From positions 248,001-312,000 of the forward strand of contig NZ_FXTA01000004.1 of assembly GCF_900182645.1 (NCBI RefSeq): 64,000 bases of DNA. Reading direction: 5' to 3'. Below the pieces are notes generated by a model. The model was not told the DNA's origin and did no database searches. It worked only from the letters and a program-made list of their open reading frames with translations. Made by a program: the position numbers and the translations under genes. Within the stretch, counting starts at the first letter, position 1. Every line of letters starts with the position of its first letter. The DNA comes from Flavobacterium resistens. Lineage in GTDB: Bacteria; Bacteroidota; Bacteroidia; Flavobacteriales; Flavobacteriaceae. This document shows positions 51,448-62,769 of this stretch, in pieces.

Positions 51448-51531
51448 ATTCTGTCGATTTCTCAGATTCTTTAGATTTTTCAATGGATAGTGTTTTATAA
51501 ATACTATTTTTACCATACAAAAAATCGAATT

Positions 51532-54500
51532 ATGCAAAGTCCGTCTTTCTCTATTTATGATGCTTCTGCAGGCTCAGGAAAGACTTATACTTTGGTTAAA
51601 GAATATCTTAAAATTATTCTTTCTTCGCCAAAAAACGATGCATATCGAAATATACTCGCGATCACTTTTACGAACAAAGCGGTTCATGAAATGAAAAGCC
51701 GTATTGTTGGTAGTCTTTCTGAATTTGCTAAAGATGAGCCTTCTGAAAAAGCAATTGCTTTGATGGAAGATTTGTCTCGGGAAACCGGACTTTCGATTAT
51801 TAAAATCAAAATTAAATCGCAAAGCATCATCAAGCATTTGATTCATAATTATGCGGCTTTTGATATTTCGACAATTGATAAATTTACCCACAAAGTAATT
51901 CGGGCTTTTGCGCACGATTTAAATCTTCCAATGACTTTTGAAGTTACTTTGGATACTGAAAATTTATTAATCGAAGCAGTTGATGCAATAATTGCACAAG
52001 CGGGTCAGGATGAAACTTTGACCAATTTACTTATCGATTTTACAATGGAAAAAACCGACGATGATAAAAGTTGGGATGTTTCTCGTGAAATTTTAGAAAC
52101 TGGTAGATTAGTGCTCAATGAAAACAATCGAAATGAAATTTTGCATTTTCACGATAAATCTATTGAAGAGTTTATCGAGATTAAAAAGAAAATGCTTGCG
52201 CTTTGCAAAGATCTGGAATCTGAAAACGAAGGTTGGGCAATAGATGCACTTTCGTTAATTGATAAAAACGGAATCGATTTAAAATCATTTTCACGTGGTA
52301 CTTTTCCAAATCATCTAGAAAGTATTCGTGACGGAAAATTCAATCCAAGAAATAAAACTTTTCATGAGTTTGATGATATTGCAATTAATAAAACGGCTAA
52401 AGATCGAGCTTTAATTGAAAATATCATTCCAGATTTGCTTCAGATTTTGAGCAAGATTTACAAGAATTTCGAAAAAAGAGATTTTTATAAAGCTTTCCTG
52501 AAAAATATAACGCCACTTTCGCTGTTGAATACAGTAAGTAATGAATTGGCAAAAATACAGTCGGAACAAAATATTCTTTCCATTTCAGAATTTAATGCCA
52601 TTATTCATCGGGAAATTCAGAACCAGCCTGCGCCTTTTATATATGAGCGTTTGGGAGAAAAGTATCGTCATTTTTTTATAGATGAATTTCAGGATACTTC
52701 TGAAATGCAGTGGCAAAATTTGATTCCGCTGATTGACAATTCACTTTCAGGTCAGGATGATTTAGGGAATAAAGGAACGCTCATGATTGTTGGTGATCCA
52801 AAACAATCAATCTATCGCTGGCGCGGAGGAAAAGCAGAGCAATTTATTGAGCTTAGTAAAGATGTAAATCCCTTTAATAATCCGGATAAAGAAATAAAGC
52901 ATTTAAATACCAATTATAGAAGTTATAGTGAAGTTATTGATTTTAATAATGCTTTTTTTAAATTAATTTCTTCCGAATTTTCAAATGAAGATTATAAAGA
53001 TTTATACGAAAATCACAGTTTTCAGAATTCAAATGCGAAAAAAGGAGGATATGTAAATATTTCATTTCTTCCAATTATTGAAAAAACTGATGCTGTAGAG
53101 GAAGAAGAAGTTGTTGAAAAATCAGATTTGTATGTTTTAGCAACTTTAAATACGATTCTAAAAGTTGTTAAACAAGGTTTTCAGTACAGAGACATTGTGA
53201 TTTTGACTCGAAAAAGAGGTCAGGGAATTGCAATTGCAAATTATTTAACGGAGCAAAATATTCCGCTTTTGTCTTCAGAAACTTTAATGATTCAGAATGC
53301 TACTGAAGTTCGTTTGATAATTCATCTTCTAAAATATTTGAATAATAGCGCCGATTTAGAATCCAAAGCTAATTTTCTTCATTTTTTAGCCTCCAATATA
53401 AATCATAAAATGCCTATTCATGATTTTATTGAAAAAGGAATGTCAAATAGAGTAGAAGCCGATTTTGAAAAATGGCTTCTGACTTTTGATGTTTCATTGA
53501 ATTTTGAAGATGTTAGAAAAAAATCATTGTATGAAGCTGTTGAAATTATCATTTCTAAATTCATTCCTTCAGAAGGAAATGCTTATGTGCAGTTTTTTCT
53601 GGACATTGTTTTAGAAAGAGATATGAGGAGTCAGGCTGGTATAGCCGACTTCTTAAGTTACTGGGATAAAAATGCTGAAAAATTCAGTATTCCGTCTCCG
53701 GAGGGAAATAATGCTGTTCGTATCATGACAATTCATAAATCGAAAGGTTTGGAGTTTCCGGTTGTGATTATGCCGTTTGCCGAAGAAGATTATAATAGAA
53801 AGCCAAAAGATAAATTATGGCTTGATGCTGAAAATGAAGATTTAGGTGTTCCTAAGGCTTTGATTGATAACAGCAGCGCGGTAGAAGGTTTTGGCGAAAG
53901 TGCTTCGGCGGTTTTTAATGTGAAAAAGCAGGAAGAATTATTGGATAATATTAATGTTTTGTATGTTGCTTTAACACGTGCCGAAGAACAACTATATGTT
54001 ATTTCGCAATCTTTGAACGAAAGAAAAGATGGAGAATTCCCTAGTAATATGGCATCTTTTTTTATTAAATATTTGATTAATGAGGGGGTTTATGATTCAG
54101 GAAAATTAGAATATGAATTTGGAGATCCCGCAAAATTATCTTCTTCGGTTGAATTCACTGATTCAATAAAAGAGATTCCGGTTGTCAAAGAAGTTTTAAA
54201 TCCAAAAAATATAAAAATTGCACAGAGAGAAGCTTTAATGTGGGGAACACATCAGCAGGAAGCAATTGCTTACGGTAATGTTGTTCATGAAATTTTGGCT
54301 TTTGTAAAAGATAAATCAGATATTGATTTGGCAGTTACAAAAGCAATTGAAGCGGGCTTAATAAAGATTGATCAGGTAGAGCAGGTTTTGAAAACGCTTC
54401 ATGATATTGTGAATCATCCGGAAATTAATGTATGTTTCGAAGGAAAAGACAAGATTTTAAATGAGCAGAATATTATCCAGAAAGAAGGGAAAATTTTAAA

Positions 54501-54687
54501 ACCGGATAGAGTTGTGCTTACAGAAGATAAAAATGCTTATTTGTTGGATTATAAAACCGGAGCAATAAATTCTAAATATAAGCAGCAACTTCAGGAATAT
54601 GAAGACGCTATTGAGGATTTGGGATATAAAGTGTTAAAAAAAGCATTGGTGTATATAGGAACCGAAATCGATGTAGTAAATTTGTGA
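51532..54687 (+). CDS. UvrD-type helicase/nuclease (AddA-like)
   Basis: 1051 aa from the ATG at 51532; the frame extends 14 codons upstream. Superfamily 1 helicase motifs in order: ASAGSGKT (Walker A, 11-18), FTNKAVHEMK (Ia), FFIDEFQDTSEMQW (II), GDPKQSIYRWRGG (III), LNTNYRSY (IV), MTIHKSKGLEFPVVIMP (V), YVALTRAEEQLYV (VI). The C-terminus has a RecB-type nuclease site (KPDRVV, LLDYKTG). With the AddB-like protein it should process double-strand breaks for recombination. The two genes are about 3 kb apart, separated by kbl and an ompA-like gene. Confidence 0.92.
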   Translation: MQSPSFSIYDASAGSGKTYTLVKEYLKIILSSPKNDAYRNILAITFTNKAVHEMKSRIVGSLSEFAKDEPSEKAIALMEDLSRETGLSIIKIKIKSQSIIKHLIHNYAAFDISTIDKFTHKVIRAFAHDLNLPMTFEVTLDTENLLIEAVDAIIAQAGQDETLTNLLIDFTMEKTDDDKSWDVSREILETGRLVLNENNRNEILHFHDKSIEEFIEIKKKMLALCKDLESENEGWAIDALSLIDKNGIDLKSFSRGTFPNHLESIRDGKFNPRNKTFHEFDDIAINKTAKDRALIENIIPDLLQILSKIYKNFEKRDFYKAFLKNITPLSLLNTVSNELAKIQSEQNILSISEFNAIIHREIQNQPAPFIYERLGEKYRHFFIDEFQDTSEMQWQNLIPLIDNSLSGQDDLGNKGTLMIVGDPKQSIYRWRGGKAEQFIELSKDVNPFNNPDKEIKHLNTNYRSYSEVIDFNNAFFKLISSEFSNEDYKDLYENHSFQNSNAKKGGYVNISFLPIIEKTDAVEEEEVVEKSDLYVLATLNTILKVVKQGFQYRDIVILTRKRGQGIAIANYLTEQNIPLLSSETLMIQNATEVRLIIHLLKYLNNSADLESKANFLHFLASNINHKMPIHDFIEKGMSNRVEADFEKWLLTFDVSLNFEDVRKKSLYEAVEIIISKFIPSEGNAYVQFFLDIVLERDMRSQAGIADFLSYWDKNAEKFSIPSPEGNNAVRIMTIHKSKGLEFPVVIMPFAEEDYNRKPKDKLWLDAENEDLGVPKALIDNSSAVEGFGESASAVFNVKKQEELLDNINVLYVALTRAEEQLYVISQSLNERKDGEFPSNMASFFIKYLINEGVYDSGKLEYEFGDPAKLSSSVEFTDSIKEIPVVKEVLNPKNIKIAQREALMWGTHQQEAIAYGNVVHEILAFVKDKSDIDLAVTKAIEAGLIKIDQVEQVLKTLHDIVNHPEINVCFEGKDKILNEQNIIQKEGKILKPDRVVLTEDKNAYLLDYKTGAINSKYKQQLQEYEDAIEDLGYKVLKKALVYIGTEIDVVNL

Positions 54688-54767
54688 AAAAATTAATCAG
54701 ATGTTAAAGATAAACACACTTATTTTAGGTTTAAGTTGTTAATTTTTAACGTTTTAAATATAAGGAA

Positions 54768-55961
54768 ATGTACGGTAAAATTAAAGAACATCTGCAAAAT
54801 GAATTGCAGACTATTGAAGAAAACGGAATTTTTAAAAAAGAACGTATTATAACTTCAGCTCAAGGTGCTGAAATTACAATTTCTACAGGAGAAACTGTAT
54901 TGAATTTTTGCGCAAACAATTATTTGGGACTTTCTTCTCATCCAGAAGTAGTGCAGGCCGCAAAAGATGCAATGGATACGCATGGATTTGGAATGTCGTC
55001 TGTTCGTTTTATTTGCGGAACACAGGATATTCATAAAACATTAGAAAAAAAGATTGCAGATTTTTATGGAACAGAAGATACCATATTATATGCTGCAGCT
55101 TTTGATGCTAATGGAGGTGTTTTTGAACCTTTATTAGGTGAAAATGATGCTATTATTTCAGATAGTTTAAATCATGCTTCTATTATAGATGGGGTTCGTT
55201 TGTGTAAAGCGGCTCGTTATCGTTATGAAAATAGCAATATGGAAGATTTGGAGCAACAGTTGATTAAAGCAAATGAAGCCGGAGCTCGTTTCAAATTAAT
55301 TGTTACAGATGGTGTTTTCTCTATGGACGGTTTAGTGGCGCCTCTTGATAAAATTTGTGACTTAGCAGATAAATATGATGCGATGGTAATGGTTGATGAG
55401 TGTCATGCAGCAGGATTTATCGGTGCAACCGGAAAAGGAACTCTTGAGGCAAAAGGAGTTATGGGACGTGTTGATATTATAACAGGTACCTTAGGTAAGG
55501 CTTTAGGAGGTGCAATGGGAGGATATACAACAGCTAAAAAAGAAATTATCGAGATATTACGCCAGCGTTCTCGTCCTTATTTGTTCTCAAATTCTTTGGC
55601 TCCTGCTATTGTTGGTGCTTCCATTAAGGTTTTTGAATTATTGGAAAAAGATACTTCATTGAGAGATAAGTTAGAATGGAATACAAATTATTTCAAAGAA
55701 GGAATGAAAAAAGCAGGTTTCGATATCATTGACGGAGATTCTGCAATTGTTCCTGTTATGTTATATGATGCTAAATTGTCGCAGACTATGGCAAATGCAT
55801 TATTAAAAGAAGGAATTTACGTAATCGGATTCTTTTTCCCAGTAGTTCCAAAAGACAAAGCAAGGATACGCGTTCAACTTTCAGCTGCGCATACTAAAGA
55901 GCACTTGGACAAGGCAATAGAAGCTTTTACATTAACAGGTAAAATGTTAAAAGTTATATAA
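54768..55961 (+). CDS. kbl: Glycine C-acetyltransferase (2-amino-3-ketobutyrate CoA ligase)
   Basis: 397 aa PLP enzyme of the alpha-oxoamine synthase family. It converts 2-amino-3-ketobutyrate and CoA to glycine and acetyl-CoA in threonine degradation. Signatures: [42 protein letters not shown] (Asp, His near PLP), and the Schiff-base Lys in [15 protein letters not shown]. No threonine dehydrogenase gene is adjacent. Length and motifs fit Kbl better than the longer homologues (5-aminolevulinate synthase, BioF), but BioF-like activity cannot be excluded. Confidence 0.92.
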
Positions 55962-56007
55962 TTACCATATTCTGTAAATTTTTGTAGGTTTTTTTTAACA
56001 TTTCATT

Positions 56008-56037
56008 TTGTATTTAAAAAATTTGGTGTTACTTTTG
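56008..56037 (+). promoter_or_regulatory. Promoter of the OmpA-like gene (TTG-N19-TACTTTTG)
   Basis: TTG at 56008-56010 and TACTTTTG at 56030-56037 with 19 nt between them: a full match to the Bacteroidota pattern. Start codon 38 nt later. Confidence 0.7.
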
Positions 56038-56074
56038 CTTGTAATTAACTAAATTGTAATTAAAAAAATTAAGT

Positions 56075-57538
56075 ATGAAACATCTTAACAAACTTTTAGT
56101 TGCTGTGATGATGGTGATGGGTTTAAGTTCTCACGCACAAGACAGTAACAATCCATGGGCAATCTCATTTGGGGTTAATGCAGTGGATACCAGAACAAGT
56201 TCTGGAGCAGGACATGGTTTCTTTGATCAGCACTTTTCTCAGCCATTCGCTGTAAAAGACAACTGGAATATTCTTCCTTCATTATCTTACATTGGTGTGT
56301 CTAGATATGTTGGTAGTGGATTTTCTGTTGGTTTGCAAGGTTCTGTAAACAAAATTGATAAATTCGTTAGCTTTGCTCCATATGCTCCAGGGCATGACGG
56401 AAGAGGGAATGTTGTAACTAATCCTGGTGACTTAATGTACTACGGAATTGATGCTACTATCAAATACAGCTTCCAAGAATTAATCAAATCTAAAGTGATC
56501 GATCCTTCGTTATCTGTTGGTGGTGGTTATACTTTCTTAGGAGATAATAGCTACGGAACTGTTAACCCAGGTGCTGGTTTAACTTTCTGGTTTACTGATG
56601 CTATTGGTCTTGAGTTAGCTACAAGATACAAATGGGCTGTTAGTGGAGATAGAGTTGATGCTTCTGGAGCTCCAGATGCTGTTTCTCACTTCCAACACAC
56701 AGCAGGTCTTATCTTCAAATTCGGAGGTAAAGATACTGACGGAGACGGAATCTATGATAAAGATGACGCTTGTCCAGATGTTGCTGGTTTAAAACAATTC
56801 AACGGATGTCCTGATACTGACGGAGATGGAATCGTTGATGCTTCTGACGCTTGTCCAGATGTATTTGGTTTAGCTGCATTAAACGGATGTCCTGATACAG
56901 ACGGAGACGGAATTGCTGATAAAGATGATGCTTGTCCAGATGTTGCTGGTTTAGCTGCTTTAAAAGGTTGTCCTGATACTGACGGAGACGGAATCGCTGA
57001 TAAAGATGATAAATGTCCTACAGTTGCTGGTCCAAAAGAAAACGGTGGTTGTCCTTTCTTAGACGCTGACAAAGATGGTGTTGCTGATAAAGATGACGAT
57101 TGTCCTACAGTATACGGTCCTGCTAGTAACAGAGGTTGTCCAGAAGTAACTTCTGAGGCTTTAGAAGATCTTAAAGTTCAAGCAAGAGCAGTTTACTTCA
57201 ACTCAGGTAAAGCTACTTTCAAAACAGGAGATAAAGAAACTCCAGCTAGATTAGATGCTATTAAAGAAATCCTTAAAAACTATCCAAACGCGAAATTCTC
57301 TATCGAAGGACACACAGATAGTACAGGTTCAGCTAAAATCAACCAAAAACTTTCTGAAGATAGAGCGAAAGCTGTATTGGATGCTTTAGTTGAAAGAGGT
57401 GTTAATGCTGAAAACTTAGAGTCTAAAGGATTTGGATCTTCTCAACCAGTTGCAAGTAATAAAACTGCTGCAGGTAAAGCTCAAAACAGAAGAACTGAAA
57501 TCAGACACATTGGTTCTAAATACCAAGGTAAACTATAA
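56075..57538 (+). CDS. OmpA-family protein with thrombospondin type 3 repeats
   Basis: 487 aa. Signal peptide to SHAQ (about 21), then an N-terminal barrel of about 195 residues. Five thrombospondin type 3 calcium repeats (about 218-356) have the pattern DTDGDGIxDxxDxCPDVxG. The OmpA C-terminal domain (about 360-487) binds peptidoglycan: YFNSGKATF, then [22 protein letters not shown] and RRTEIRH. It is likely an abundant outer-membrane anchor. Complete promoter at 56008-56037 and terminator at 57560-57587, so it is its own unit. Confidence 0.96.
56730..57140 (+). repeat. Tandem repeat encoding thrombospondin type 3 units
   Basis: Imperfect DNA copies of about 69-84 nt (gatacngacggagacggaat type) inside the OmpA-like gene. 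Repeat number may vary between strains by recombination. Confidence 0.8.
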
Positions 57539-57559
57539 TTTACTTTGTAAATAATACTT

Positions 57560-57587
57560 AAAAGCCATTCTTAATTGAATGGCTTTT
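57560..57587 (+). terminator. Terminator of the OmpA-like gene
   Basis: aaaagccattc and gaatggctttt with a 6-nt loop, followed by T residues; 14 nt before the AddB-like start codon. Confidence 0.88.
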
Positions 57588-57601
57588 TTTATTTTTATAA
57601 A

Positions 57602-60367
57602 ATGATAAACACTTCTTTTCTTGAAAAAATTGCAGCTGTAGTTATTCAGAATTATGAAACAAAGCTTGCTGAAACAACTATTATTCTGCCTAATAAAAGA
57701 GCGAAGGTTTTTTTAATTGAAGCTTTAAAAAAAGAAACTCACAAAACTATTCTTTCGCCGGATATCATTAGCATTGAGGATTTTGTTCAGGACGTGGCTT
57801 CAATTCGTTCAATAGATTCAATCGAGCTTTTGTTTGAATTTTATGAAGTGTATTTGTCTGTTACAGAAAAACAGCATCAGCAGTCATTTGAATTATTTGC
57901 TAATTGGGCCAAAACACTTTTACAGGATTTTAATGAAATTGATCGATATCTTCTAGATCCGAACCATGTACTTTCTTATTTGAAAGATATTGAGGATATA
58001 AAAAAGTGGGGAGTCGAAGTAGAAAACAAAACAAAACTTTTAGAGAATTATATTGATTTCTGGAAGCTTCTTCCTTTGTATTATGACGCATTATATAATC
58101 ATTTGTTAAACAAAGCAATTGGTTATCAAGGTTTGATTTATCGAGAAGCTGTCAATAATCTTAATCATTTCTCGAATACGGTTTCAAGCCGTTCTTTTAT
58201 CTTTGCAGGCTTTAATGCGTTAAATGCTGCTGAAGAGAAAATAGTGCAACATTTATTGGCTATGGATCAGGCAAAAATATACTGGGATACAGACCAGACC
58301 TTTTTGAATGATCCTTATCACGACGCGGGGCTTTTTGTAAGGCGTTTTAAAGAAAGCTGGAAGTATTATAAATCGCATCCTTTTGAATGGATTGTAGATG
58401 ATTTTTCGCAATCCAAAAATATTCAGGTAATTGGTTCGCCAAAAACTATCGGCCAGGCAAAAATTGCAGGAAGTATAATTGAAAATTTAATTACCGAGAA
58501 TCCTGCCGGATCTTTAGATAAAGTTGCGGTGGTTTTAGGTGAGGAAAGCTTGCTGATTCCGGTTTTGTATTCGTTGCCTGCTTCAGTTGGTGCTTTGAAT
58601 ATTACCATGGGATATTCTGGTAAAAACAATCCGTCACAGATTTTAATTGCTAAATTGTTTAAAATGCATACAAATGCGCTTTCGCGAAAGGGCGACAGTT
58701 ATGTATTTTATTATAAAGATGTTTTAGATGTTTTAACACATCCGCTTGTGGCTCCTTATGCAAATGCAAATCATCTGGTTAAGATTATCAAAGAGAATAA
58801 TTACACTTTTATTTCTCATAACAGAATAATTGAATTGTATGGTCATTCATCTAATCTGTTCGATTTATTATTTAAAAAATGGGAAAGCGGTTCATTAGCT
58901 GTACTTGAAAATATTTCAGCACTTTTGCTTTTGATCAAAACAAATTTTGATAAGGATAATGAAGAGGAGAAAATTGCAAAATCTTTTGTTTATGCTGTTT
59001 TTAAAGTCATAAATAAACTTATCAATTATTACACTAGTCATAATCATATTGATAACATTGATACGCTTCACGCCATTTACAAACAAATTATTGATGTTGC
59101 TGAAGTTTCATTTGAAGGTGAACCTTTGCGTGGACTTCAAATAATGGGTGTTCTTGAAAGTCGTGTTCTCGATTTTGATACGGTTATTATAACTTCAATG
59201 AATGAAGGAAAATTTCCGGCTGGGAAATCTCAAAATTCCTTTATTCCTTATGATGTAAAAAGAGAATTGGGTTTGCCGACTTTTAAAGAAAAAGATGCAA
59301 TTTATACGTATCATTTTTATCATTTACTTCAGCGTGCCAAAAATATCTATCTTATTTACAATACTGAAAATGATGGATTAGATGCAGGTGAAAGAAGTCG
59401 TTTTATCACACAGTTAGAGGTGGAAAAACAACCTAGGCATAATCTGACTTTTGATATTTATAATCCGGTTTTACCTTCAACGGCATATCAGCCAATGGTG
59501 ATTCCAAAATCGGAGGCTGTTATGAACCGATTGAAAGAGATCGCTTTAGCGGGATTTTCTCCTTCTGCACTGACAAGTTATATTCGAAACCCGATTGATT
59601 TTTATTTCCAAAAAATACTTCGAATCCGTGAAGTAGAAGAAGTAGAGGAAAATATCGCGTTGAATACTCTCGGAACGATAATACACGAAACGTTAAAAGC
59701 GCTTTACGAACCTTTTATTGGTCGATTTATTTCTGAAGAAGATATAACAAAATGCTTTAAACTTCTTGATGAAGAGGTTTTAAAACAATTTAAAGTAGTT
59801 TATAAAGAAGGTGAAATTAAAAAAGGCCGAAATCTTTTAGCTTTCGAAGTTGCAAAACGAAATGTTTTTAATTTTCTGAAAGTGGAATTAGAAGCAATTC
59901 GAAATGGAGACGCAATTAAAATTATTGCTTTAGAGCAAACATATCAGCGCGAACTCACACATCCAAGTTTGCCATTTCCGGTTCTTATAAAAGGAAATGT
60001 TGACCGAATTGAACAGCGAAATGGAAAAATAAGAATTATTGATTATAAGACAGGAAAAGTCGAAAAGGCGAATGTTGTACTCAAAACATGGAACGGATTG
60101 ACCAATGAGCTTAAAAACGACAAAATCATTCAGGTTTTAGCTTATGCATTCATGTTTGAAAAAGAAGCTGGCAACATGCCTATTGAAGTTGGAATTATTT
60201 CATTTAAGAATCTAAAATCAGGTTTTTTGCCTTTTATATTCAAAGAAGAAAAAGATTTGGATACAACTGTGTCTGAGCAAACTCTCGCTTTGTATCTGAA
60301 AGAAATAGTTTTGCTTTTGAATGAAATTTTTGACACTACAATTCCTTTTGAAGAAAAAATAAATTAA
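57602..60367 (+). CDS. AddB-like PD-(D/E)XK nuclease family protein
   Basis: 921 aa from the ATG at 57602 (MINTSFLEK); the frame has a second ATG 9 codons earlier, within the terminator. The N-terminal half is an inactivated helicase-like region. The position usual for Walker A reads LPNKRAKVFLIEAL, with no GKT/S. The C-terminus has the RecB-type nuclease site: FSPSALTSYIRNPIDFYFQ, GNVDRIEQ, IRIIDYKTGKVE. Bacteroidota AddB proteins lacking ATP-binding motifs fit this. The stop overlaps the next start (TAATG). Confidence 0.9.
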   Translation: MINTSFLEKIAAVVIQNYETKLAETTIILPNKRAKVFLIEALKKETHKTILSPDIISIEDFVQDVASIRSIDSIELLFEFYEVYLSVTEKQHQQSFELFANWAKTLLQDFNEIDRYLLDPNHVLSYLKDIEDIKKWGVEVENKTKLLENYIDFWKLLPLYYDALYNHLLNKAIGYQGLIYREAVNNLNHFSNTVSSRSFIFAGFNALNAAEEKIVQHLLAMDQAKIYWDTDQTFLNDPYHDAGLFVRRFKESWKYYKSHPFEWIVDDFSQSKNIQVIGSPKTIGQAKIAGSIIENLITENPAGSLDKVAVVLGEESLLIPVLYSLPASVGALNITMGYSGKNNPSQILIAKLFKMHTNALSRKGDSYVFYYKDVLDVLTHPLVAPYANANHLVKIIKENNYTFISHNRIIELYGHSSNLFDLLFKKWESGSLAVLENISALLLLIKTNFDKDNEEEKIAKSFVYAVFKVINKLINYYTSHNHIDNIDTLHAIYKQIIDVAEVSFEGEPLRGLQIMGVLESRVLDFDTVIITSMNEGKFPAGKSQNSFIPYDVKRELGLPTFKEKDAIYTYHFYHLLQRAKNIYLIYNTENDGLDAGERSRFITQLEVEKQPRHNLTFDIYNPVLPSTAYQPMVIPKSEAVMNRLKEIALAGFSPSALTSYIRNPIDFYFQKILRIREVEEVEENIALNTLGTIIHETLKALYEPFIGRFISEEDITKCFKLLDEEVLKQFKVVYKEGEIKKGRNLLAFEVAKRNVFNFLKVELEAIRNGDAIKIIALEQTYQRELTHPSLPFPVLIKGNVDRIEQRNGKIRIIDYKTGKVEKANVVLKTWNGLTNELKNDKIIQVLAYAFMFEKEAGNMPIEVGIISFKNLKSGFLPFIFKEEKDLDTTVSEQTLALYLKEIVLLLNEIFDTTIPFEEKIN

Positions 60368-60663
60368 TGATCAGAAAGCTACTAAACATATTCGAGTTTT
60401 TTAAAACAACATTGATAGTTAACTTGTTGGTTTCTGCAATTGCTGTTTTTTTGGGTGGTTTTGATTATTTCTTTATATGGTTTCTAAGTTTTGGTTTTTT
60501 AGCCAGCATCGGTTTCAAGGAATTTTATCGCAAAAAAAATTATTTGTTTTATTTCAATAATGGTGTTTCAAAAATCCAACTTATGTTATTTAGTTATCTG
60601 ATGACTTTTTGCACCGCAATTTTATTTGGTTTAATCGTCTTTTTAAAAAATAAATTATTTTGA
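60367..60663 (+). CDS. Small membrane protein coupled to an ABC ATPase
   Basis: 98 aa with three predicted membrane helices (about 14-30, 31-48, 73-93), beginning MIRKLLNIFEFFKTTLIVNL. It resembles a minimal ABC membrane partner, though too short for a typical permease. Start overlaps the AddB stop (TAATG). Its stop overlaps the next gene's TTG start (TTGA). No function is known. Because it sits next to the ATPase, a two-component transporter or a regulatory membrane anchor is plausible. Confidence 0.75.
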   Translation: MIRKLLNIFEFFKTTLIVNLLVSAIAVFLGGFDYFFIWFLSFGFLASIGFKEFYRKKNYLFYFNNGVSKIQLMLFSYLMTFCTAILFGLIVFLKNKLF

Positions 60664-61331
60664 AAAAACATACTTTGGAAATTAGCGGGATTCAGAAAAG
60701 ATTTGGAGATAAAACGATACTTTCTGATGTTTATTTGAAATGTGAAACTTCAGAAATTATTGGATTGCTCGGGAGAAACGGCTCTGGAAAATCTACTTTG
60801 TTGAAAATTGTAGCCGGTTTAGAATCAGTTCCGGATCGTTGTGTTCGAATCGATTCTGTTTCTTTGAATATTAAAAATGCATTGATGAATAATGTCAGTT
60901 ATTTGGATCAGGATCAGTTTATTCCGAATCATCTTTCTGTTCAAAAAGTGATTGCACTTTCAATTGATAAAGAAAATAGAATTAATTTTTGTGAAGATCA
61001 GTTTATCAAAAAGCTTCTAAACAAAAAAATAAGACATTTGTCAACGGGCGAATTACGTTATCTGGAAATAAAAATTGTGCTTTCCAATTCATCCTTGTTT
61101 GCATTGCTCGACGAACCTTATAATGGACTTTCTCCGCTGATGATCGAAACTATAAACGAAATGATAAAAGGCAGCTTAAACAAAAAAGGGATTATTGTTA
61201 CGGACCATAACTATCAGAATGTAGTAAAAATCGCAAATCGGCTGGTTTTGATAAAAGACGGAAAGACTCATCCAATAAAAGAAAAAACCGAACTTGTCGA
61301 AAAAGGATATCTTACAAGTATGGCTTTTTAA
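60660..61331 (+). CDS. ABC transporter ATP-binding protein
   Basis: 223 aa starting at TTG (60660-60662), overlapping the previous stop by three bases. The nucleotide-binding fold is complete: Walker A GLLGRNGSGKST (35-46), Q-loop about residue 85 (LDQDQF), signature LSTGE at 127-131 (a diverged LSGGQ), Walker B SLFALLDEP (145-153) and switch His183 in VTDHNY. Likely partner: the 98-aa membrane protein just upstream. No solute-binding protein or large permease is visible, so the transport substrate is unknown. Confidence 0.92.
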   Translation: MKKHTLEISGIQKRFGDKTILSDVYLKCETSEIIGLLGRNGSGKSTLLKIVAGLESVPDRCVRIDSVSLNIKNALMNNVSYLDQDQFIPNHLSVQKVIALSIDKENRINFCEDQFIKKLLNKKIRHLSTGELRYLEIKIVLSNSSLFALLDEPYNGLSPLMIETINEMIKGSLNKKGIIVTDHNYQNVVKIANRLVLIKDGKTHPIKEKTELVEKGYLTSMAF

Positions 61332-61995: not shown

Positions 61996-62769
61996 TTAAA
62001 AGAAGTTGTTTAAAATGCTTTTCAGTTCGTCTTTATTTTCAATATGGCTCATATGCCCATCTTCAAACGAAACTAATTCTGCAGTAGTGTCTTCGATTTG
62101 CGATAAACTGTCCTCATAATTTAAAACCGGGTCTTTTTTGCCTAAAATCAATAAAAGCGGAAAACGGTTTTCGTGTAAAAGCCATTCTCTGTCTTTTCTG
62201 ATTTTCATTCCTTCGAGTGATGCTACAATTCCCTGTAAAGGTGTTTTTAAAGCTTCTTCTTTTACTTTTTCAATTTCATTTGCCAGACGAATTCGGTTGT
62301 TTTCACTAAATAAATTTGCAATCGCTAAACTCACAAAACCTACATAATTTTGTTTTACGGCTTTTATGGCACGAGTTCTGTTCAGTTTTTTTTCGACGCT
62401 GTCTTCTTTTGAAGTGGAATTCAGTAAAACTAATTTTTTGATTTTATCTGGAAATAATTCGGCGAAAGCCAAACCAACATATCCACCCATTGAATGGCCA
62501 AGAATTGTTGCTTTTTCTATATTTAAATATTCCAAAACTTCATTTACAGCATTTGCATTTTCCTCCATTTCATGCACATATCCCAAAGAATCAGATTCGC
62601 CGTGACCTAATAAATCAATGGTAATGACACGATTTTTTTCTGAGAAAAGTTCAATATACTCTTTCCACATTTTTTTATTTTCTAAAAAGCCGTGCAACAG
62701 AACAATTGCGTTTCCTTTTCCTGAATCTGTAAAAGATATTTTGGTGTTTTTATATAGAATGTTTTTCAA
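61996..62769 (-). CDS. Alpha/beta hydrolase
   Basis: 257 aa starting at TTG (62767-62769); upstream codons reach a stop within four positions and no ATG is available. The fold has the oxyanion segment LLHGFLENKKMW (His26-Gly27), the nucleophile Ser93 in GHSMGG (91-96), an acid in LILGKKDPVLNYEDS and the catalytic His in FEDGHMSHIEN. Such proteins include esterases, C-C hydrolases and lipases; substrate unknown. Box TACCTTTG at 62794-62801 likely drives it. Confidence 0.88.
   Translation of the reverse strand: MKNILYKNTKISFTDSGKGNAIVLLHGFLENKKMWKEYIELFSEKNRVITIDLLGHGESDSLGYVHEMEENANAVNEVLEYLNIEKATILGHSMGGYVGLAFAELFPDKIKKLVLLNSTSKEDSVEKKLNRTRAIKAVKQNYVGFVSLAIANLFSENNRIRLANEIEKVKEEALKTPLQGIVASLEGMKIRKDREWLLHENRFPLLLILGKKDPVLNYEDSLSQIEDTTAELVSFEDGHMSHIENKDELKSILNNFF

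Follow-up and report, generated by a model that had tools for sequence, protein, structure and literature searches.

Among the described ATP-binding cassette (ABC) systems that come closest to the locus treated here, LptF and LptG bear a periplasmic jellyroll, FtsX has four transmembrane (TM) helices, and in both FtsX and MacB, TM1 is separated from TM2 by a periplasmic domain. According to the accessible part of an ECOD-based comparison, the transmembrane domain (TMD) of type II exporters has a core of four TM segments with a coupling helix between the second and the third, the fourth being shared by FtsX, LptF/G and ABCG/ABCA (PMC6588880), and the accessible text of the 2020 classification assigns six helices to LptFG, five to MlaE and four to MacB, the smallest that it names there (PMC8386196). 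Here we analyse two overlapping genes in a stretch of 64,000 nucleotides (nt), called the window throughout, from the 5.04-Mb genome of Flavobacterium resistens (contig NZ_FXTA01000004.1, C4:248001-312000; positions count from the first letter of the window). The first gene encodes a small membrane protein and the second a complete ABC ATPase related to LptB, and we consider it probable that the two constitute a minimal ABC membrane machine, most likely one that extrudes or flips a small amphipathic or lipid-like molecule.

The pairing of the two genes is close to invariant. For 221 of the 223 distinct ATPase sequences that ATPase queries reached, the gene directly upstream belongs to the small-protein family; this count is kept separate because loci found through the small protein (L001-L012 and L015-L037, with 11 distinct sequences reached only that way) favour pairing; with these added, 232 of 234 distinct ATPase sequences are preceded by the small protein, and with duplicates included it stands immediately upstream in 279 of the 282 loci examined. 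The exceptions are a locus cut by a contig end (L216) and an orphan ATPase in a single genome, G773 (L061/L159), which lies beside the terminal part of a presumed histidine kinase gene. A small-protein match with four stops and no ATPase beside it (L013) and four loci outside the family (L038, L039, L041 and L042) were dropped before counting, and the count covers part of the order-level ATPase matches given below. By the median over loci, the small gene reaches 4 nt into the region matched by the ATPase profile. An earlier note on this DNA, made from the letters alone, had proposed a minimal two-gene ABC module and had named ATPase homologues sitting beside a full-size permease as the finding that would speak against it; what stands directly upstream of the 221 sequences is the small protein, and the proposal is supported. 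The unit of the module is the pair, not a trio with addB.

The same association was obtained from the other side. A single-sequence search with the small protein gave a match in 13 of 60 relatives' genomes, the ATPase adjoining in 12 of them (the thirteenth is L013), while the small-protein profile matched at least 23 of 395 Bacteroidota genomes, with the same ATPase family directly downstream in all 23. At E <= 1e-45, the ATPase profile matched at least 31 of 395 genomes of the class, at least 63 of 395 genomes of the window's own order and at least 240 of 400 genomes in the order of G138, which is probably Sphingobacteriales; per genome, at most 12 candidates were scored with the small-protein profile and 7 with the ATPase profile, and the genome numbers are lower bounds. 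Across families of Bacteroidota the small protein keeps a similar size, helix order and motif. A scan of genome contigs gave one locus only, the survey being otherwise one of Bacteroidota genomes. Double copies of the ATPase are few among the genomes listed; G146 has two copies of the module (C1:596772 and C5:204276, the latter L352), each with a small protein. None of the listed matches shows the small gene fused to the ATPase, the longest open frame being 299 amino acids (aa); plasmids gave no match at E <= 1e-40, and viral contigs held at least 17 distant ABC relatives.

At the DNA level, the coordinates, lengths and overlaps reported earlier all proved correct on re-check. The last A of the addB stop (TAA, 60365-60367) is the first base of the small gene's ATG (TAATG), and the stop of the small gene (TGA, 60661-60663) overlaps the TTG start of the ATPase (60660-60662; TTGA). 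The nearest named record, Flavobacterium sp. ASV13 (L014), has 95% identity for both proteins, and against it the ratio of nonsynonymous to synonymous substitution rates (Ka/Ks) is 0.24 for the small gene (11 differences only), 0.10 for the ATPase and 0.04 for addB; judged by these substitutions, the small open reading frame looks to be under selection as a protein. Since it recurs upstream of the 221 ATPase sequences, it is not a chance open reading frame. An origin of the small gene by frameshift or read-through from addB was also considered and was rejected, because the frame offset between addB and the small gene is not constant. The features of the locus are as follows.

60367-60663, forward strand: small membrane protein gene, an open reading frame of 98 aa; predicted minimal ABC transmembrane subunit
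60370-60456, forward strand: small-protein residues 2-30, N-terminal amphipathic stretch and TM1 (AlphaFold2)
60460-60528, forward strand: small-protein TM2, helices 32-40 and 42-54 (AlphaFold2)
60532-60570, forward strand: small-protein residues 56-68, predicted coupling helix; motif YLFYFNNGVSK at residues 59-69 (AlphaFold2, conservation, LptF/G register)
60571-60657, forward strand: small-protein TM3, helix 69-97 (AlphaFold2)
60660-61331, forward strand: LptB-like ABC ATPase gene, 223 aa, TTG start (ABC_tran, 73.9 bits)
60771-60794, forward strand: ATPase Walker A GRNGSGKS, residues 38-45 (sequence; G, G, G and K kept in 229-231 of 232)
61038-61052, forward strand: ATPase signature LSTGE, residues 127-131 (sequence)
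61101-61118, forward strand: ATPase Walker B ALLDEP, residues 148-153 (sequence; E kept in 230 of 232)
57602-60367, forward strand: addB-like gene, context only, outside the module except in one lineage (PDDEXK_1, addB_alphas)
61996-62769, reverse strand: alpha/beta hydrolase gene, convergent neighbour, context only (Abhydrolase_1)

The AlphaFold2 model of the small protein, built with 49 family members, has a predicted local distance difference test score (pLDDT) of 94.3 and a predicted template modelling score (pTM) of 0.80, with helices at residues 2-30, 32-40, 42-54, 56-64 and 69-97 and no extracellular domain; a distant member of 120 aa (L063, 88 rows) gave pLDDT 87.4 and pTM 0.70, with helices in the same order (2-34, 40-63, 65-73 and 78-117). 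Lysine and arginine together amount to 0.174 per residue in alignment columns 1-15 and 0.150 around the short helix, as against 0.015 in the loop after TM1 (C-terminal tail excluded from the count). Because the positive charge lies there and not in the TM1-TM2 loop, which has about 7 residues and is almost chargeless, the N-terminus is predicted to be inside and the short helix to be cytoplasmic. The label "three-helix protein" given previously holds for the membrane helices and overlooks this short fourth one. The three most conserved columns among 232 sequences (Y/F62 in 232, N64 in 229 and G66 in 220) lie in or just after the short helix, and residues 56-68 are predicted from the model to form a coupling helix between TM2 and TM3, where ABC permeases have theirs.

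The small protein was also compared with known permeases. Three overlapping small-protein profiles, aligned by hhalign to residues ~1-130 of LptF/G (29 proteins), gave E-values of 0.013, 0.0028 and 0.0057, and each run aligned the short helix and TM3 with the LptF/G coupling helix and TM3 in a single register, in which the LptF/G motif E-x7-G-[IV]-S falls opposite position 58 and G66 of the small protein. Seven controls (LptF/G reversed, and FtsX, ABC-2 and the C-terminal part of LptF/G, each forward and reversed) gave E 0.049 or worse; the ABC-2 comparison, with four own-genome ABC-2 proteins only as its template, was no better than the controls. Three permease families of Pfam matched single members over the short helix, namely LptF_LptG (L010, residues 34-93, 15.8 bits), ABC2_membrane_3 (L004, residues 19-94, 16.3 bits, E 0.0055) and FtsX (L068, residues 52-100, 13.9 bits, E 0.059). 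In the VIA structure comparison of the L063 model, FtsX of Mycobacterium tuberculosis FtsEX ranked first of 229 chains and alone reached Z 8 (Z 8.0, root-mean-square deviation [rmsd] 4.9, all 120 residues aligned), and LptG appeared at Z 4.7 and rmsd 8.9, which is not meaningful alone.

The ATPase has the Walker A, Q-loop, signature, Walker B and H-loop motifs that place it in the ABC ATPase superfamily, confirming that it is complete, and the Walker A G and K, Q84, the signature S and G, D151/E152 and H183 are kept in 224-232 of 232 sequences (columns of the alignment are one below these residue numbers). The signature LSTGE was read correctly for the window, although the family norm is LSGGE (155 of 232) and LSTGE occurs in 5 of 232. 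LptB is the best NCBIfam model for the window ATPase (112.8 bits, with 84.4 for the next and a missed cut-off of 240), and of the listed models with a match to all 32 of 32 ATPase members it has the lowest E-value. The three best PDB matches of the ATPase profile were 9doh LptB (149 bits), 5x5y (149 bits) and 6mjp (140 bits), followed by ABCA3 (131 bits); 5x5y and 6mjp are listed as LptB2FG(C) entries in the accessible tables and text of the 2020 classification (PMC8386196). In a tree of the module family with 16 own-genome ABC ATPases, sampled out of 42 matched places, the family joins one of them (L140, support 98/94) on a long stem of 1.39, apart from the 15 others, and this ATPase reads from its sequence as the host's own LptB.

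This kinship bears on a reading in which the small protein is an accessory adaptor that recruits the LptB-like ATPase to a permease from another locus, for instance as an alternative motor for LptFG. We regard it as improbable. The grouping with LptB and the occurrence of LptF/LptG genes in the host and in all 16 genomes searched for them would suit an adaptor, but the small protein has a coupling-helix-like element of its own, which is its most conserved part, and LptF/G also occur in G002, G005 and G006, in which no small protein was detected. Moreover, the LptB groove residues F90 and R91, which according to the accessible text of PMC5082905 contact LptF/G, have P89 and N90 as their counterparts in the window ATPase, and position 90 is variable in the family.

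Covariation between the two proteins was examined by mean-field coupling on 232 paired sequences (effective number, 171). The top inter-protein score was 1.47, and 6 of the 8 strongest inter-protein couplings involve small-protein residues 56-68; when sequences were re-paired 25 times within lineages, these values rose no higher than 1.36 and 4 of 8, respectively. This lends weak support to a contact between residues 56-68 and the ATPase.

Several results weigh against the reading of the pair as a minimal membrane machine with a permease-like subunit: (i) the hhalign probabilities that go with the LptF/G alignments are low (3, 11 and 6%); (ii) the three permease matches in Pfam, at 13.9-16.3 bits against cut-offs of 25.5-31.6, concern one member each, and matches of similar strength were obtained to PRA1, DUF4199, SecE and herpesvirus gM; (iii) an unrelated chain, the designed scaffold 3lg7, scores level with FtsX in the structure comparison (Z 7.8), and Z values under ~13 are common for helical bundles; (iv) Foldseek against the PDB gave nothing at E <= 0.001 with either model (three poor matches for the window model), and the comparison of the window model by VIA with 7 chains returned no ABC protein in its rows, the best Z being 4.8 for a complex I subunit; (v) the coupling-helix glutamate described as strictly conserved in LptF/G in the accessible text of PMC5082905 corresponds to N58 in the window, and E occupies the position in just 88 of 232 sequences; (vi) the fourth core segment is absent from both small-protein models, although the place of the coupling helix agrees; (vii) in the covariation analysis, the cut at 8 pairs was picked after viewing the list, residues 56-68 account for 7, 12 and 19 of the top 20, 50 and 100 pairs where re-pairings reach up to 9, 19 and 29, and re-pairing also breaks fine-scale kinship, which by itself lowers scores; and (viii) the module is often missing or lost, so its function is dispensable. 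In Pfam and NCBIfam searches, the window small protein and 40 further members gave weak scattered matches and none above cut-off, and the remaining members, for which E-values alone were available, had a best match of 0.00052 (DUF4118). The gathering score of LptF/LptG (PF03739, 27.9 bits) was not reached, with L010 the single one of 49 members matched at E <= 1, and the family is absent from the E <= 0.1 matches of 88 members. Searches of PDB sequences with two small-protein profiles gave one chance match, to the start of an MlaD entry, with one profile and none with the other. Because the cut-offs, the glutamate, the fourth segment and the periplasmic domain fail, the small protein is no member of the LptF/G, FtsX or ABC-2 families; it may nevertheless work like these systems.

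How the minimal machine would operate can be outlined from these likenesses. Two LptB-like ATPases and two three-helix proteins would assemble, with the short helix (residues 56-68) of each small protein sitting as coupling helix in the groove of an ATPase; on ATP binding the ATPase dimer would close and shift the coupling helices, with the six membrane helices of the small-protein dimer opening or closing at the periplasmic side. Most likely, a small molecule of the inner membrane, amphipathic or lipid-like, would thereby be extruded or flipped. We infer docking in the groove, dimerisation, the lack of a further subunit and the nature of the substrate. Extrusion of a lipid-like substrate has been proposed, in the accessible part of the report, for YbbAP-TesA (PMC12646458). 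A more far-reaching version holds that a homodimer of two times three helices, with one coupling helix each, forms a complete ABC machine together with two LptB-like ATPases, that its transmembrane domain is the smallest known for an ABC system, and that it represents the extruder fold of LptFG, MacB, FtsX and ABC-2 permeases in pared-down or ancestral form; we hold this version tentatively, at somewhat below an even chance.

Alternatively, the pair may be a mechanotransmitter like FtsEX, in which the ATPase moves the small protein, which in turn regulates another envelope protein without any transport. This is unlikely in our estimate. In its favour, FtsX came top in the structure comparison (if tied), three helices per subunit leave scant room for a substrate path, there is no extracellular domain, and no neighbour is common to more than 6 of 25 loci. 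FtsX, however, reaches its partner through a periplasmic domain, whereas the TM1-TM2 loop of the small protein is so short and near chargeless that any partner would have to bind within the membrane, and the 25 neighbourhoods offer no widely recurring partner gene. Between LptFG-like extrusion and FtsEX-like force transmission, we lean towards extrusion because the ATPase is kin to LptB. An envelope role is possible by analogy, the closest relatives (LptB, LptF/G and FtsX) being envelope machines.

The neighbouring genes were also evaluated, as the earlier note had named conservation of the order addB-small gene-ATPase in Bacteroidota as a check and had considered a DNA-repair-linked role. The AddB-like protein has a PDDEXK_1 match of 87.3 bits (Pfam cut-off, 22) and an NCBIfam addB_alphas match of 96.7 bits, below the cut-off of 486.5. 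With its C-terminal 205 residues as tblastn query, addB was found ahead of the module in just 25 of the 232 distinct loci and went undetected in the other 207, so the three-gene order is not conserved. That the trio is a functional DNA-repair operon is therefore very improbable: the TAATG overlap in the window and the 25 addB-linked loci would fit it, but addB is kept in 20 of 20 same-genus genomes chosen as lacking the module there, other neighbours take its place elsewhere, and the small protein is a membrane protein. With the addB association incidental, the ground for a repair role is gone. In the same 20 genomes the hydrolase follows within 1.5 kb of addB in 19 (3 run off the fetched end); this set came from two small-protein searches, one of them a less sensitive single-sequence search, and one of its genomes (G391) carries the module elsewhere. 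When the genes of 25 neighbourhoods were clustered (clustering alone, with no family scan of the neighbours), no gene besides the pair occurred in more than 6 loci among the matches listed; in genomes of family f17, the neighbours presumably include genes for RpoD, PhzF and SMC. In the window itself, two genes stand between the UvrD-like (addA-like) and addB-like genes (51490-60367), one at 54768-55961, which we take to encode a glycine C-acetyltransferase type enzyme, and one at 56075-57538, presumably encoding an OmpA-like protein with repeated DTDGDG motifs.

Single loci carry damaged copies. In L002 (G008), the small gene has an internal TAG while the ATPase frame is intact. L163 (G399) has only remnants in the interval from addB to the hydrolase: tblastn finds a scrap of the ATPase there, and the sequence immediately 3' of addB resembles, by eye, the opening twelve or so codons of the small gene. 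Both loci point to module loss under way. The internal stop and the locus reduced to remnants are also what could be cited for the small gene being a decaying piece of a formerly larger permease, which we find scarcely credible, given that size, helix order and motif are alike across Bacteroidota families in 232 loci and that its Ka/Ks is 0.24.

The start of the small gene varies as well. Although an ATG occurs within 25 codons in 192 of 232 small-gene loci, the interval from the in-frame stop to the conserved N-terminus contains neither ATG nor GTG nor TTG in 12 of the 25 addB-linked orthologues (L003, L005, L015, L016, L017, L021, L023, L025, L209, L212, L217 and L370; window counterpart 60367). 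At the expected start these have ATC, ATT or, in L003, GTC, followed by AGA, AGG or AAA. Over the first 15 codons of five of these loci, synonymous differences exceed non-synonymous ones in 9 of 10 pairs, and for this reason the start-less stretch looks translated; the pattern suggests that these orthologues start at near-cognate codons, with initiation coupled to the addB stop.

As to novelty, the searches found neither a curated Pfam or NCBIfam family nor a PDB sequence for the small protein at a convincing score, even though its ATPase partner is present in at least 240 of 400 genomes of one order. A literature search over the titles and beginnings of abstracts listed, with subscription papers and bioRxiv mostly or wholly outside its scope, turned up no such two-gene system. 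The module may be among the simplest ABC membrane machines so far; if this is true, a three-helix subunit with a coupling helix would go below the four helices of MacB and would offer a tractable model for how an ABC motor drives membrane helices.

To conclude, the module can be set beside three kinds of known systems. ABC-2 exporters share with it the one ABC2_membrane_3 match, and unlike it have six TM helices. FtsEX and MacB resemble it through the first rank of FtsX in the structure comparison, tied with the scaffold, and the one weak FtsX match in Pfam; MacB, however, has four TM helices in the accessible text of the 2020 classification (PMC8386196) where the small protein has three, and the small protein is without the fourth helix and the periplasmic domain of an FtsX/MacB-type TMD. 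LptB2FG differs in having two different subunits, LptF and LptG, with six TM helices each according to the same text (PMC8386196), against three helices, no domain and one subunit gene here. The module resembles LptB2FG in its ATPase, for which LptB is the closest of the solved structures, of the NCBIfam models and of the 16 ABC ATPases compared from the same genome. The small protein shares with LptF/G the register and the position, after TM2 and before TM3, of its predicted coupling helix, and one member has the weak LptF_LptG match over that segment.

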